Assembly: GCA_017469925.1 (NCBI GenBank)
Contig: JAFUFK010000013.1
Coordinates: forward strand, 372,001-436,000
DNA from: Bacteroidaceae bacterium
GTDB taxonomy: Bacteria > Bacteroidota > Bacteroidia > Bacteroidales > Bacteroidaceae
DNA length: 64,000 bases
Direction: 5' to 3'
In this document: positions 20,088-57,605 of the stretch, piece by piece
How positions within the stretch are numbered: the first letter of the stretch is position 1
Layout: each line of letters opens with the position of its first letter
Notes under the pieces: generated by a model
The model's database searches: none
What the model saw: only the letters and a program-made list of their open reading frames with translations
What the model was told of the DNA's origin: nothing
Position numbers and translations under genes: made by a program

Positions 20088-20430
20088 AAAAAAGCGTGAG
20101 AGTCATTGTCCGTTGCATCGTCCAATGAACTGAGGCCTTAGGAAACCCTTACAATCTGGACAAGCAACCTAAGACCCCACGCCGATATGTTATATATGCC
20201 ACCTCTGCTTTACCTAACTATACAGCAAAACAGGGCCGGTCTGATAACATACCCGTGACATCTATCGTTGCATCGTTCTCTGATTGTAATTGAAGTGTCC
20301 TAAGTTTCAGCTCATCAAGAACAAAGCGCGTGATAAACGCCTTTCCATATATGGTATCCCCACGACAAACGAGGCCCGCTGGCCACCATTTTCGTCCCAA
20401 CGCATACGCGTTATCGGCGCGGGGATGCTG
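20088..20430 (-). ncRNA. Candidate structured non-coding RNA or long leader
   Basis: A minus-strand transcript from the -7 element at 20431-20438 would begin near 20425 and run through many short hairpins: AACGC/GCGTT (20399-20412), GGCC/GGCC (20373-20384), GCGT/ACGC (20328-20340), and GTCTTAGG with CCTAAGGC. An outer stem pairs GCGTGGGG (20175-20182) with CTCTCACGC (ending near 20094) and is followed directly by six Us (20088-20093), as in an intrinsic terminator. I looked for tmRNA and RNase P signatures and found none. A 71-codon TTG-started frame (20218-20433) lies inside, but its start falls in the promoter. Alternatively this is the leader of the gene starting at 20010. Confidence 0.4.
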
Positions 20431-54147: not shown

Positions 54148-54219
54148 TCCGGAGTCCTCCTATCTACCTCTTCCTACAAAAAATATCTACATTTATTTGG
54201 CAAAATGTGGGAAAGTTTG

Positions 54220-54227
54220 TACCTTTG
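54220..54227 (+). promoter_or_regulatory. Upstream promoter of the HTH-LRR cassette
   Basis: TACCTTTG with TTTG at 54196-54199 (20-base spacer), one of the best promoter matches in the window. Transcription would begin near 54234 and leave a leader of about 375 bases. Confidence 0.75.
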
Positions 54228-54228
54228 C

Positions 54229-54614
54229 ACCGGAGTTTGTCCGCCCTGCATGCTGAAGAAGCATTAACAGGACACTTCAAACCTCAGCAGAGGCTGAGCG
54301 ATATCGTTTGATATTCGAAGCATTATGCTCTATCTTGCAAGCTGAAAACCTGAGAAATTTTCTATCTTTGCAAAGACTGGGAAGCCTGTAGCAGCGTAAA
54401 CCTACTACAGGAAAAGCCGATATAACATAAGATGACATACATGGCTTCACGCGTGTACTGGCGTGGAACTGACCATTAAGAACATCTTTGTTATATCGGG
54501 CATTCTCAGGGCCCTCAGCTTGGAGATGTGACATACAGTTCCACGCTTCGTTTGTCTATACGATGCAAGACTGATGTTTAACCACAAGACAAGCGACACA
54601 CGAGAGAATGCCCG
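54229..54614 (+). promoter_or_regulatory. Candidate structured leader RNA with start-codon-covering helix
   Basis: Long leader before the HTH gene. Hairpins: CTCAGC/GCTGAG (54283-54298) and CCTGTAG/CTACAGG (54385-54411). Helix A pairs 54417-54434 with 54483-54499, 17 pairs with one bulge. Helix B pairs GCGTGGAACTG (54461-54471) with CAGTTCCACGC (54536-54546), perfect over 11. Helix C pairs CGGGCATTCTC (54497-54507) with GAGAATGCCCG (54604-54614), perfect over 11 and covering the ATG at 54608. A and B cross (pseudoknot topology), B and C cross, and A and C share three bases. This arrangement suggests a switch that hides or frees the start codon. No known riboswitch signature was recognised. 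Confidence 0.5.
54363..54370 (+). promoter_or_regulatory. Downstream promoter within the leader
   Basis: TATCTTTG followed by GCAAAG, with TTGC at 54335-54338. A transcript from here would still contain helices A, B and C but not the upstream hairpins. Confidence 0.6.
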
Positions 54615-54949
54615 CACGCCGATTCACTTCACAAGACAAGGAACACATCCTCACCATGCTTCACAGCGGGGTGAGCAAGAAGACTATTGCTCGCCTCTTG
54701 CAGATTGACCGCCGCGACATCACCATTTGGGACCTCCGCTACCAGCGCTATGGCGTGGAGGGGCTTGAGCCCAGGTTCAAGCACACCATTCCTGCCGCCA
54801 CGAAGCGCCAGATTGTGGAGGAGTATCTCAATGGGGGTATCTCCATGCGTCAACTATGTACTGAACACAATATTTGTCTCTCTACGCTTAAGAACTGGCG
54901 AAAGAAGTATCTGGAAGAAAACAACATTCAAATACACAAACTAATATGA
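54608..54949 (+). CDS. Small helix-turn-helix protein, transposase-OrfA-like
   Basis: Basic protein of 113 residues made of two helix-turn-helix units: KEHILTMLHSGVSKKTIARL near residues 10-30 and YLNGGISMRQLCTEHNICLS near 78-97, the latter followed by LKNWRKKYLEE. It resembles the first frame (OrfA) of IS3/IS150-type elements, but no OrfB, terminal inverted repeats or target duplication were found, and the next gene is an unrelated surface protein joined by an ATGA overlap. It is therefore more likely a domesticated DNA- or RNA-binding regulator of this cassette than a live transposase. Start fixed by the ATG at 54608. Confidence 0.72.
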   Translation: MPARRFTSQDKEHILTMLHSGVSKKTIARLLQIDRRDITIWDLRYQRYGVEGLEPRFKHTIPAATKRQIVEEYLNGGISMRQLCTEHNICLSTLKNWRKKYLEENNIQIHKLI

Positions 54950-57402
54950 AACAAATCTTCGAGGTTATGAAAAGTTTTAAGGTAAGGGGACTCCAACGAG
55001 TCCTAATGGCGCTCCTACTGCTGGTGGCAGGTGCGGGGCAAACGTGGGCGGCAGAGTACCGTGTCATCTTCGACCATGAGCTGCCTGGTGCTGGGTATAC
55101 GCTTGGATATCCTGCAAGAACAAGTATTAGGACATGGGGCAATCCTGCCAGAGTCGATTCAACGACCGTTATTACGAGTGGGACTTATACTATTACCAGT
55201 GATAATGTCACAAACTACATTCGTCCTAAAACTGTTGCTGGCTATACAGGTGAAGTGTGGATAAACTCCGGAGGTGAAATCTGCGTGGGATATACACCCA
55301 CCAATACCTCTTCTGTAATCACATGGCACGATGATGTGTTTGAATATTCTACATTATTTGTGAAGAGTAGTACTTCCACGAAGTTGATGCCCTCTGGTGA
55401 GGTGGCTATTCGCTTGTATTGTGGAGGTGAAGAAAGTGTCACGGATACTGTTGCCTATACAGGAAGTTCATCTGCATATCCTCAAAATAAAAAGGGGGAT
55501 CGTCTAGGAGAAACAACGAATTACGTTTATTATGCTCAGGATGACGATGGCGATGATGCCAATGGTTCATATACTGGCTCCGGATATCAATATAATAATG
55601 GATTCCGCCAGGGCACGTATACGAGTTCTGCCAAATATAAATGTTTAGGAAATTTGGATTATGAGGCAAATGTTAGTACAATCAGTGGTATGACGCCACG
55701 ATATACCTACTTCTACGAACGCACACATACCGTAAAAGTTGCAAATGGTGAGGCACAAAGGAAAGTAACCGTACCTTTGGAGGTAACGGCACCTGCCGAA
55801 GTGGGTGGAGGAACTTATAAGGTAACCGCCATCCAGAAGTGGGGATTCTGCTATAATAAGAGTGCACAGACAAGTTTGGACTATTGTAAAGGATTTCAGG
55901 CCAATCAAAGTAATGATAATGCTTACACTTCAACCTATGTAGTTCACAATTGTATAAACGACCATAGCAATGAGTATCTTGAGTCGGTGGATTTTGGCGA
56001 CAACAGCAACATTACAGAGATTGGCGACTACGCCTTTATCAGCTGTGATAAGTTGACAGAAATCACGCTTCCTTGGCGACTAACCTATTTGGGCGTTGGT
56101 ACGTTTAAGTTCTGTAAGGGCATCCAAAAGGCTACGCTACAGACTTGCCCACTTACTGACAACAAATACTTCGGCCAGACTAGATTAAATATTATTCAGG
56201 CGTGGACTTTCATCGGATGCTTCAGTTTGGAACAGGTATATCTGGCTGATGGTGTTAAGAAGATTGAGGGCCTGTCGTATGGTGCACCTTTCCAATATCT
56301 TTCGAGCCTGAACTACATTCGTCTCCCGAATACGCTGGAGTACATTGGTCCCCATTTCTTGTGCACATGTACTGGACTTACTACGGTTACAATACCTGCC
56401 AGCGTGGAATACATCGATGGTGCCTGCTTCCACGGATGCGAAAGCCTGAATGACGTGCTCCTATTGGGTAAGGCTGCTGACCTTCAAGCACTTTCTGGTG
56501 AGTCAAGGACCTTTAGTGAGAACGCTACAAACTGTGGTAACCATGTGAATACTGCAACATTCTGGGTTGTTGACCAATATCAGAGTGAATATGAGAATCA
56601 TAGCGTTTGGGGAACATTGCTGACTGACGGATATAACAATACTATTAAGCCTTTCCCCGCCGTTCCGCGTGAATTCAAGGCTGGCAAGTGGGCAAGCGTA
56701 GTATTCCCGCCACGCGTGGCTGACCCCAACCGAACAGAGAATCCTACCGGAAAGAGCATCGACCCAGAGAAGGCCTTTGGCGAAGGCACGATGGTTGCCG
56801 TCTTGTCAGCGGCCAAACGTGATGATAATAACATCAGTCTCTATCATCTGACATTTACACAAGTTGAGGGTGAGATACCTACTGGCGCCACCTATATGCT
56901 GAAGCCCGGCCAGGATACCACCTATGAAATGTATAATGGTGCAGACCAGGCTCAAGAAGGTTTCACTCTTGACATGACGAACGAGCATCCCCGTTCTGTT
57001 GTGGCTCCTGAGGACAATGCCGTTGTATATCAAAAGGGTACGTATGTAAAGACGAAGCTGAAGACATACGACTTTATCTTCTCTGCAACAGGAGAAGGCA
57101 CAACAGCATCGCCTTACAAATACACTTTCCGTAAGGTGACGACAGGTACTGCCTACGCACGTGCTTGCGGTTGCTGGTGGGAAGTTGTTCGTAGTGGAGT
57201 TTCTCTTAACAGCGACGCAAAGGGCATCCTTAGTGTTAATGGCGTTGAGACAGGCTTAGACGAAGTACCATTTGAGGATTCTTCAGTTCGCTTTGTTATT
57301 GATGGAATATATGACCTCAGCGGACGCCTCATCAAGATTAAGCAAGAGGAACTGCCGACAGGTATGTATATCATTAACGGAAAGAAGGTATTAGTAAAGT
57401 AA
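54946..57402 (+). CDS. BspA-like leucine-rich-repeat surface protein
   Basis: Exported protein of 818 residues. A long N-terminal region with a hydrophobic signal (VLMALLLLVAGAGQTWAAE) precedes a beta-rich, Tyr/Gly-rich part (about 40-260). About residues 340-530 hold LRR_5/BspA repeats (ITEIGDYAFISCDKLTEITL, LEYIGPHFLCTCTGL, VEYIDGACFHGCESLND). The end, IYDLSGRLIKIKQEELPTGM and then YIINGKKVLVK, is the C-terminal sorting-like module typical of Prevotella surface proteins. Probably an adhesin or binding protein. It starts by ATGA overlap with the HTH gene. Confidence 0.85.
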   Translation: MKQIFEVMKSFKVRGLQRVLMALLLLVAGAGQTWAAEYRVIFDHELPGAGYTLGYPARTSIRTWGNPARVDSTTVITSGTYTITSDNVTNYIRPKTVAGYTGEVWINSGGEICVGYTPTNTSSVITWHDDVFEYSTLFVKSSTSTKLMPSGEVAIRLYCGGEESVTDTVAYTGSSSAYPQNKKGDRLGETTNYVYYAQDDDGDDANGSYTGSGYQYNNGFRQGTYTSSAKYKCLGNLDYEANVSTISGMTPRYTYFYERTHTVKVANGEAQRKVTVPLEVTAPAEVGGGTYKVTAIQKWGFCYNKSAQTSLDYCKGFQANQSNDNAYTSTYVVHNCINDHSNEYLESVDFGDNSNITEIGDYAFISCDKLTEITLPWRLTYLGVGTFKFCKGIQKATLQTCPLTDNKYFGQTRLNIIQAWTFIGCFSLEQVYLADGVKKIEGLSYGAPFQYLSSLNYIRLPNTLEYIGPHFLCTCTGLTTVTIPASVEYIDGACFHGCESLNDVLLLGKAADLQALSGESRTFSENATNCGNHVNTATFWVVDQYQSEYENHSVWGTLLTDGYNNTIKPFPAVPREFKAGKWASVVFPPRVADPNRTENPTGKSIDPEKAFGEGTMVAVLSAAKRDDNNISLYHLTFTQVEGEIPTGATYMLKPGQDTTYEMYNGADQAQEGFTLDMTNEHPRSVVAPEDNAVVYQKGTYVKTKLKTYDFIFSATGEGTTASPYKYTFRKVTTGTAYARACGCWWEVVRSGVSLNSDAKGILSVNGVETGLDEVPFEDSSVRFVIDGIYDLSGRLIKIKQEELPTGMYIINGKKVLVK

Positions 57403-57416
57403 AGGAGGGTACGAGA

Positions 57417-57605
57417 ATGAAGAAATATTATATTAGCCCCTCGTTGAGGAGCATAGGACTGGAGAACGAAGAGTTTATCGCTCATTCCATTGAATTGGAT
57501 GGCACCCTGCCTGATGGCACAGAAATCGGTACGGGTCCCCACGTAGAAGAAGGCGAAGAAGTTGAAGGCGACGTAAAACGGAACCTTTGGGATGAGTTGT
57601 GGTAA
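57417..57605 (+). CDS. 62-residue acidic peptide following the LRR gene
   Basis: Short frame with a strong ribosome binding site (AGGAGG about 10 bases before the ATG), 14 bases after the LRR stop. The sequence MKKYYISPSLRSIGLENEEF starts like the many short Bacteroidales proteins of the MKKxYxxPS type, and the rest is acidic (VEEGEEVEGD) with a short final NLWDELW. No signal peptide, no cysteine. It could be a secreted or processed peptide or a partner of the surface protein; neither is shown. Confidence 0.65.
   Translation: MKKYYISPSLRSIGLENEEFIAHSIELDGTLPDGTEIGTGPHVEEGEEVEGDVKRNLWDELW

Follow-up and report, generated by a model that had tools for sequence, protein, structure and literature searches.

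Introduction

The c-di-GMP-I (GEMM), c-di-GMP-II and c-di-AMP (ydaO) elements are second-messenger riboswitches that occur in many copies per genome, and the put RNA and the EAR element are thought to act by processive antitermination. Many RNAs of Bacteroides thetaiotaomicron were reportedly deposited in Rfam by a comparative-genomics paper of 2022. Differential RNA-seq of that species is described as giving ~4500 start sites (PMC7366714), Bacteroidota are described as generally lacking Shine–Dalgarno sites (PMC3155529), and a table in PMC2864571 lists Bacteroidales-1 (RF01693), Bacteroides-1 (RF01694), 6S-flavo (RF01685), Flavo-1 (RF01705) and Bacteroid-trp (RF01692), structured RNAs of the same phylum as the element described here, as well as epsC.

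The locus considered here lies in a 64 000-nucleotide stretch of DNA from a Bacteroidaceae bacterium, which is referred to as the window. A first-pass annotation of positions 54229–54614, made from the letters alone, had described three long interlocked complements (helices A, B and C) in front of a gene for a small helix–turn–helix (HTH) protein. From comparison with homologous copies the leader RNA is predicted to span ~54316–54550, as the 5′ leader of the 54608–57605 transcription unit and a divergent member of a family whose existence we regard, from sequence comparison, as nearly certain. The element looks like an uncatalogued, portable, switch-like cis-regulatory RNA.

Sequence sets and models

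A covariance model of the ~54425–54560 core (R1) and an improved model built from 43 copies with the long subtype left out (R2) were used for searching. Alignment A3 (MAFFT, structure-free, 43 copies) consisted of 41 of 61 copies plus L131 and L138, without long-subtype copies. Alignment A5 comprised 92 copies (91 distinct) from 89 chosen sources and was fitted to helices P1, P2 and P4; the long-subtype copies L077–L094 and L098 (the window copy excepted), four weak copies of the window's own genome, the loci of the genome-contigs collection and antisense echoes were left out of it. P3 is absent from the fitted model and was judged copy by copy, own against mismatched partner regions.

The set used for gene context held 118 copies: 15 loci were dropped as duplicates (including L181, though it is a separate copy), 23 of 27 order- and phylum-sample loci were included, and viral and plasmid loci were left out. 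Distances to open reading frames (ORFs) were counted for the 110 copies with 600 nt on both sides. The first-gene alignment covered 109 of 112 genes, the distant and doubtful ORFs of L107, L346 and L350 being left out.

The locus

The features of the locus, all on the forward strand, are as follows.

54196..54227 (+), promoter, TTTG at 54196–54199 and TACCTTTG at 54220–54227, read from the sequence; expected transcript start ~54233
54283..54298 (+), small 5′ hairpin CTCAGC-AGAG-GCTGAG, ahead of the RNA domain, read from the sequence
54316..54321 (+), 5′ strand of P0, CGAAGC, partner 54545–54550, from the minimum-energy and centroid folds
54339..54345 (+), 5′ strand of P1, partner 54515–54521, from double changes in the family and the own-partner test
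54349..54356 (+), 5′ strand of P2, CCTGAGAA, partner 54503–54510, from double changes in the family and the MAFFT alignment
54385..54411 (+), optional insert hairpin CCTGTAG...CTACAGG (I5), an exact complement that marks the long subtype
54417..54434 (+), 5′ strand of P3 (helix A), partner 54483–54499, from complementarity and folding
54441..54474 (+), local hairpin P4, CACGC at 54448–54452 with GCGTG at 54461–54465, from folding
54461..54471 (+), 5′ strand of helix B (pseudoknot PK), GCGTGGAACTG, partner 54536–54546, an exact complement; excludes P4 and P0
54482..54529 (+), tentative helix P6, ACATCT at 54482–54487 with AGATGT at 54524–54529; would exclude 54429–54434/54483–54488 of P3
54497..54614 (+), helix C, 54497–54507 with 54604–54614 (start codon); window-specific, excludes P2
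54536..54550 (+), switching 3′ strand CAGTTCCACGCTTCG, pairs within helix B or P0 and, in about half of the relatives, with a downstream hairpin loop GGNNCUG
54608..54949 (+), HTH protein of 113 amino acids, HTH_28/HTH_Tnp_1, transposase-OrfA-like, from the ORF and Pfam
54946..57402 (+), secreted BspA-type LRR_5 surface protein; the gene after the HTH gene, not a transposase
57417..57605 (+), gene for a 62-amino-acid peptide ending in NLWDELW; similar short ORFs follow several related operons

The boxes at 54196..54227 are of the Bacteroidota −33/−7 promoter type. A second promoter at ~54360 (TATCTTTG) was considered and rejected, the homologous site lying inside the RNA and not looking promoter-like in relatives by eye. 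By eye again, many copies from the genus have a hairpin with an AGCG-like loop at the place of 54283..54298; the insert hairpin at 54385..54411 is missing from compact copies of the leader RNA. A conserved leader peptide was also rejected: short frames occur in single copies, but their starts and frames vary between copies (judged by eye, no statistics).

The 62-amino-acid peptide gave no Pfam match. ORFs of 56–64 amino acids stand behind surface-protein genes in the window (57417–57605) and at L081, L087, L105, L113 and L121, and their products end in or near a tryptophan–aspartate motif (NLWDELW, IWDNEW, IWDEEW, LWDSEW). A second, weaker copy of the RNA lies in the window at 20088–20332 on the reverse strand (L156, 36.8 bits) and precedes an ORF of 121 amino acids that has no Pfam match.

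Complements and predicted fold

A sequence search found the three long complements where they had been described, as exact 11-nt pairs with 100% complementarity (54417–54427/54489–54499, 54461–54471/54536–54546 and 54497–54507/54604–54614); in the folds the first of them is prolonged across one bulge by 54429–54434/54483–54488, giving helix A as annotated. The assertion that three such complements are unlikely by chance was borne out by dinucleotide-preserving shuffles of 54229–54614: at least one Watson–Crick complement of at least 11 nt appeared in 30 of 2000, and three in none.

The segment 54316–54552 folds with −86.4 kcal/mol (z = −6.19), a value that none of 200 shuffles equalled, and its minimum-energy structure includes helix A, P0, P1, P2 and P4. 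The helices of the first-pass annotation are part of the leader's anatomy, which it had drawn without the long-range helices P0, P1 and P2 and without P4. Because they share bases, helix C and P2 are mutually exclusive, as are helix B and the local hairpin P4, the shared bases lying in the 3′ strand of P4 and the left strand of helix B.

Covariation

Comparison of the copies shows a predicted domain of ~165–235 nt made up of helices P1–P3, the inner part of P4 and the closing helix P0. For P0, P1, P2 and P4 together, 98.1% of the cells in A5 are paired, with 395 double-changed cells against a shuffled mean of 117.4 and a covariation score of 0.484 against 0.190 (at most 0.074 with the strands slid by 1–3 columns); the counts for P1, P2 and P4 are inflated because A5 was fitted to these helices, and P1 and P2 are borne out by the MAFFT alignment, which was made without structure. 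For these two predicted long-range helices the covariation is overwhelming. P1 has double changes at six of six family pairs and in 77 of 92 copies pairs better with its own partner than with at least 95% of the others; P2 has them at seven of eight pairs, with 99.2% paired. The exchanges in both also appear in the MAFFT alignment of 43 copies, where one P2 pair, for example, reads CG in 32, GC in ten and TA in one.

P0 shows double changes at five of seven family pairs and is paired in 96.2% of cells, its own partner being ahead of at least 95% of the others in only three of 92 copies. In the P3 region of homologues the own partner scores 17.2 against 9.7 for mismatched ones, and 65 of 92 copies beat at least 95% of the others; on A3, misalignment of that stretch makes the column counts for P3 low (of 20 to 43 cells per pair, 9 to 29 are paired). 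The inner pairs of P4 are formed at 99% in the 92 copies and its outer pairs have little support (42 to 62 of 80 to 90). P6 is weak (own 13.4, mismatched 11.9, 11 of 92 copies; on A3, 26 to 41 of the 41 to 43 cells of each pair are paired), and a local GAAA/TTTC hairpin likewise gave weak statistics in own-versus-mismatched pairing. The kept pairs of the nested helices and of helix B include G–U pairs.

The 3′ strand and its partners

Helix B is paired in 94.0% of cells in the family copies, with little variation. Double changes occur at eight of nine family pairs, in 14 cells against 3.3 after shuffling (none of 500 shuffles as high), and the covariation score is 0.128 against 0.105; slid controls reached up to 16 double-changed cells and a score of 0.107, at 25–56% pairing. 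Pairing with the own partner is better than with at least 95% of the others in 11 of 92 copies. By eye, helix B reads GCGTAGTCTG with CAGATTACGC in L131 and GCGTGAGT..CTG with CAGACTCACGC in L072, and is prolonged by CTATACTT/AAGTATAG in L358; in L131 and L128 the same helix-B strand retains its local partner too, again by eye. These observations suggest complementarity for a pseudoknot alternative, with weaker support than P1 and P2 have. Loss of the pairs in homologous leaders had been named beforehand as evidence against the first-pass reading: helix A is kept, as the P3 scores indicate, helix B is kept with little variation to judge by, and helix C is not kept.

A hairpin is found in many copies between the domain and the start codon. 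Its loop, GGNNCUG, mostly starts 23–39 nt past ACGC and is complementary to CAGNNCC, the 7 nt directly 5′ of ACGC. A perfect 7-nt pairing of loop and 3′ strand was present in 45 of 92 copies against 1.8% in shuffled windows, and a pairing of six of seven or better in 62 of 92 against 26.9%; in 30 of 92, the window copy among them, there is no six-of-seven loop partner 12–50 nt downstream. A longer search window gave perfect pairing in 47 of 92 against 13.0% for mismatched copies. Among the 42 variant strands, perfect pairing (14 of 42) compares with 13.5% for mismatched partners, and pairing of six of seven or better (27 of 42) is barely commoner than the mismatched 57.1%. Compensated variants include CTGTTCC/GGGACAG, TAGTTCC/GGGACTA, TAGTACC/GGTACTG, CAGCGCC/GGTGCTG, CAGCACC/GGTGTTG and TTGGCTC/GGGTCAA. 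For the stems round the loop, own partners give a score of 13.6 and those of other copies 10.3; 16 of 62 stems lie above the 95th percentile of the mismatched. At least five T in the 7 nt after ACGC, as would suit an intrinsic terminator at the 3′ strand, were counted in 33 of 92 copies. The pre-start hairpin was not found in the window copy, where the best loop match is five of seven.

Taken together, the predicted 3′ strand CAGNNCCACGCTTC can pair in three ways: in helix B, in P0 or, in about half of the copies, with the loop before the start codon. Of these predicted pairings, P0 and the loop contact are compatible with each other, and helix B excludes both. Repeated, conserved sequence could account for part of the apparent competition between helices.

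Distribution

Of 139 genomes of the genus, 37 were matched in a search at the DNA level; among the matches listed outside the window's own genome, all fall within ~54425–54560 and none in the HTH gene. Model R1 matched 83 of the 139 at E ≤ 0.01. R2 gave 19 matches at E ≤ 1 in the genome that holds the window, of which 18 reach E ≤ 1e-3. At E ≤ 0.001 the same model matched 309 of 399 genomes and 25 of 30 genera in the family sample (the other 90 genomes giving no match), 116 of 295 in the order sample and 22 of 296 in the phylum sample, the last being the window's own genome, one other of its family and 20 others of the same class. Match counts per genome are lower bounds, seven or nine candidates having been scored per genome.

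Among viral contigs, 35 pattern hits yielded 14 full and three end-truncated copies; seven records from the plasmid collection (among them Bacteroides, Phocaeicola and Parabacteroides) and a single phage record also carry the RNA. The records and the plasmid taxonomy point to Bacteroidales and the class Bacteroidia. Judged by these searches, the predicted RNA is common in the family and thinner elsewhere in the class.

Genes behind the RNA

In 79 of 90 copies (4.1 in simple shuffles) a TAnnTTTG box precedes the RNA by 20–110 nt, and in 44 of 90 a TTG stands 16–26 nt before the box. Within 260 nt, 104 of 110 copies have the start of a same-strand ORF of at least 80 amino acids; the mirror image gives 33 of 110. 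The distance from the end of the RNA to the start codon has a median of ~53 nt (quartiles 45–61 nt). A gene follows 113 of the 118 copies. What the copies present is, by prediction, a conserved structured domain in the 5′ leader of protein-coding genes, as expected of a riboswitch.

The first genes are mostly unrelated and include adhesins, lipoproteins, methyltransferases, toxin-like and resistance genes. The commonest informative Pfam families among 109 of them are Big_2 (seven), LRR_5 (six), Dockerin (five) and DUF4595 (four), followed by FRG, DUF2971 (L155 and L160 in the Pfam scans) and HxsD with two each, and by single DNA methyltransferases and lincosamide nucleotidyltransferases; the resistance-type nucleotidyltransferase of L356 (PF10706) is probably the Lnu-like member of this tally. 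No family is dominant among the 109 by Pfam, and gene content therefore gives no clue to a signal. By a crude rule, 74 of 113 first-gene products look exported.

DNA methyltransferase genes lie directly downstream of the RNA at four loci, three in the window's own genome (L075, cytosine-5 by sequence; L076, HsdM-like by sequence; L153, EcoRI-type by Pfam) and one in another genome of the genus (L128, D12 by Pfam). At L339, L352, L312 and L330 the RNA precedes candidate His-Xaa-Ser peptide maturation operons; the two HxsD matches are probably L339 and L352, and L312 and L330 have a similar second gene. Plasmid copies immediately precede a DUF4433 gene, whose product is presumably DarT-like, and the MUN-1 beta-lactamase gene of B. 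uniformis pBUN1 (L336); a DUF6088/AbiEii pair has a partial match 381 nt ahead of it. On six viral contigs of 4–5 kb (L304, L307, L310, L319, L320 and L329), perhaps small phages or satellites, the RNA is followed by a gene with MDFKDS at or near the start of its product, that of L329 matching HSDR_N.

HTH_28 was found in three of 109 first genes, and of the seven closest homologues of the window's HTH protein (at least 43% identity) five have the RNA upstream; none was found by model R1 at the other two, L132 and L140. The five HTH-linked copies are those of the window, L070 (= L137), L072 (= L141), L131 and L138. Double-HTH proteins of the transposase-OrfA type gave four matches in the window's own genome, the protein itself included (window 54608–54949; L130, L137, L140, L141), and the window, L137 and L141 copies have the RNA leader in front and a surface-protein-like gene behind. 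A protein search of the genome-contigs collection returned no relative of the HTH protein.

Helix C was rejected as a feature of the RNA family. It is peculiar to the window copy: for the junction of the remaining four HTH-linked copies, the downstream sequence of the same copy is no better a partner than that of mismatched copies, 29–64% of which pair as well. Since it excludes P2 and covers the ATG, helix C could, in the window copy, be a local stand-in for the absent pre-start hairpin, or it could be due to chance.

Discussion

We consider it rather probable that the RNA is a switch; the regulated step and its direction are inferred from the predicted pairings. In one state P4 and P0 would form, leaving CAGNNCC free to kiss the hairpin loop GGNNCUG by the start codon; in the other, the pseudoknot partner GCGUGG..CUG would capture the CAGNNCC strand and the pre-start hairpin would be released. 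The change of state would alter translation of the downstream accessory gene, or transcription where a U-rich tract follows the helix, and a common ligand or protein is the candidate trigger. In the window copy helix C, which excludes P2, may hide the start codon in place of the hairpin, although this is speculative. The boldest reading, which we think somewhat less likely than not, is one portable switch class ahead of accessory genes on Bacteroidia chromosomes, plasmids and phages. One signal shared by all of them would then govern adhesins as well as genes for DNA modification, abortive infection, toxin-like products and drug resistance, and the RNA would represent a new class, riboswitch or protein-sensing, with a 3′ strand that chooses among three partners. 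No common pathway is visible among the downstream genes, and this would be uncommon for a metabolite riboswitch; dependence on one protein would explain it if the RNA were instead the docking site of a protein complex, for processive antitermination or with a global RNA-binding protein, that allows foreign accessory genes, often long ones, to be transcribed or translated. The many copies per genome ahead of unrelated, often long genes, the fixed position right behind a promoter box and the nucleotides conserved outside helices (by eye) would suit such a site; short genes are served too, however, and the contact between strand and loop and the spacing to the start codon would be superfluous for antitermination, and we think this reading unlikely. 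A constitutive 5′ structure that stabilizes the mRNA or holds the start region open, with no switching, would agree with the very stable fold, the 5′ position and the many kinds of gene, but a plain stabilizer needs no distant 7-nt contact with compensated changes, no second GCGTGG partner and no such strong sequence conservation, and we find this reading doubtful.

A feature of the DNA itself, the end or recombination site of a mobile unit with accessory genes that folds as single-stranded DNA, is very improbable: although accessory genes, plasmids and viral contigs and the transposase-like HTH gene of the window could point that way, most copies have a fixed polarity between promoter box and start codon, and G–U among the kept pairs suits RNA better than DNA. 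The first-pass annotation had offered a cis-acting switch or autoregulation by the encoded HTH protein. Its cis-acting structured leader with mutually exclusive helices stands; the first genes being mostly unrelated, autoregulation is rejected as the general function of the RNA, with HTH_28 in three of 109 first genes, no RNA found by R1 at two of the seven closest homologues and helix C not conserved. A leader bound by its own HTH product, for which the five HTH-linked copies speak, is the least probable of the readings considered. If the portable switch class is right, a large structured RNA present in 309 of 399 sampled genomes of the family has remained outside the standard RNA library, and the element would show how Bacteroidota control imported genes and would bear on how gut and rumen bacteria restrain accessory genes.

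Comparison with known RNAs

The statement that no known riboswitch class is recognizable agrees with Rfam 15 (4227 families), and the known classes were rejected as candidates on this basis: nothing scored above the gathering threshold for the RNA in the window, where only three tRNAs were found, or in 15 related loci. At E ≤ 10 the region 54150–54960 gave two matches, with E = 2.6 and 3.5, that fall far short of the threshold, and at E ≤ 1 the 15 related loci gave a tRNA only. None of RF01693, RF01694, RF01685, RF01705 and RF01692 was reported for the window or for the 15 related loci at E ≤ 1; as they bear Rfam numbers, these five RNAs were presumably in the scanned library. The open-access literature, taken without supplements, gave no name for such an RNA, and novelty is for this reason judged mainly on Rfam 15. 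The words Bacteroid, Prevotella, Flavobacteri and Porphyromonas are absent from the main texts of PMC11109978 and PMC8632094. The candidate RNAs of the human microbiome in PMC8040213 number in the thousands and could include this element; in its main text, on which the comparison is based, the sole passage on Prevotella concerns RNAs near uvrC.

Like the second-messenger riboswitches, the RNA is a structured leader near the start codon with many copies, surface-protein targets and mutually exclusive helices; unlike them, it has no Rfam match, and its targets also include DNA-modification, toxin-like and drug-resistance genes. With the EAR element (the epsC leader RNA) and the put RNA it shares the place of a structured leader right behind the promoter. 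It differs from both in having no family match, in its predicted contact with a hairpin beside the start codon and in the many unrelated genes that it precedes.
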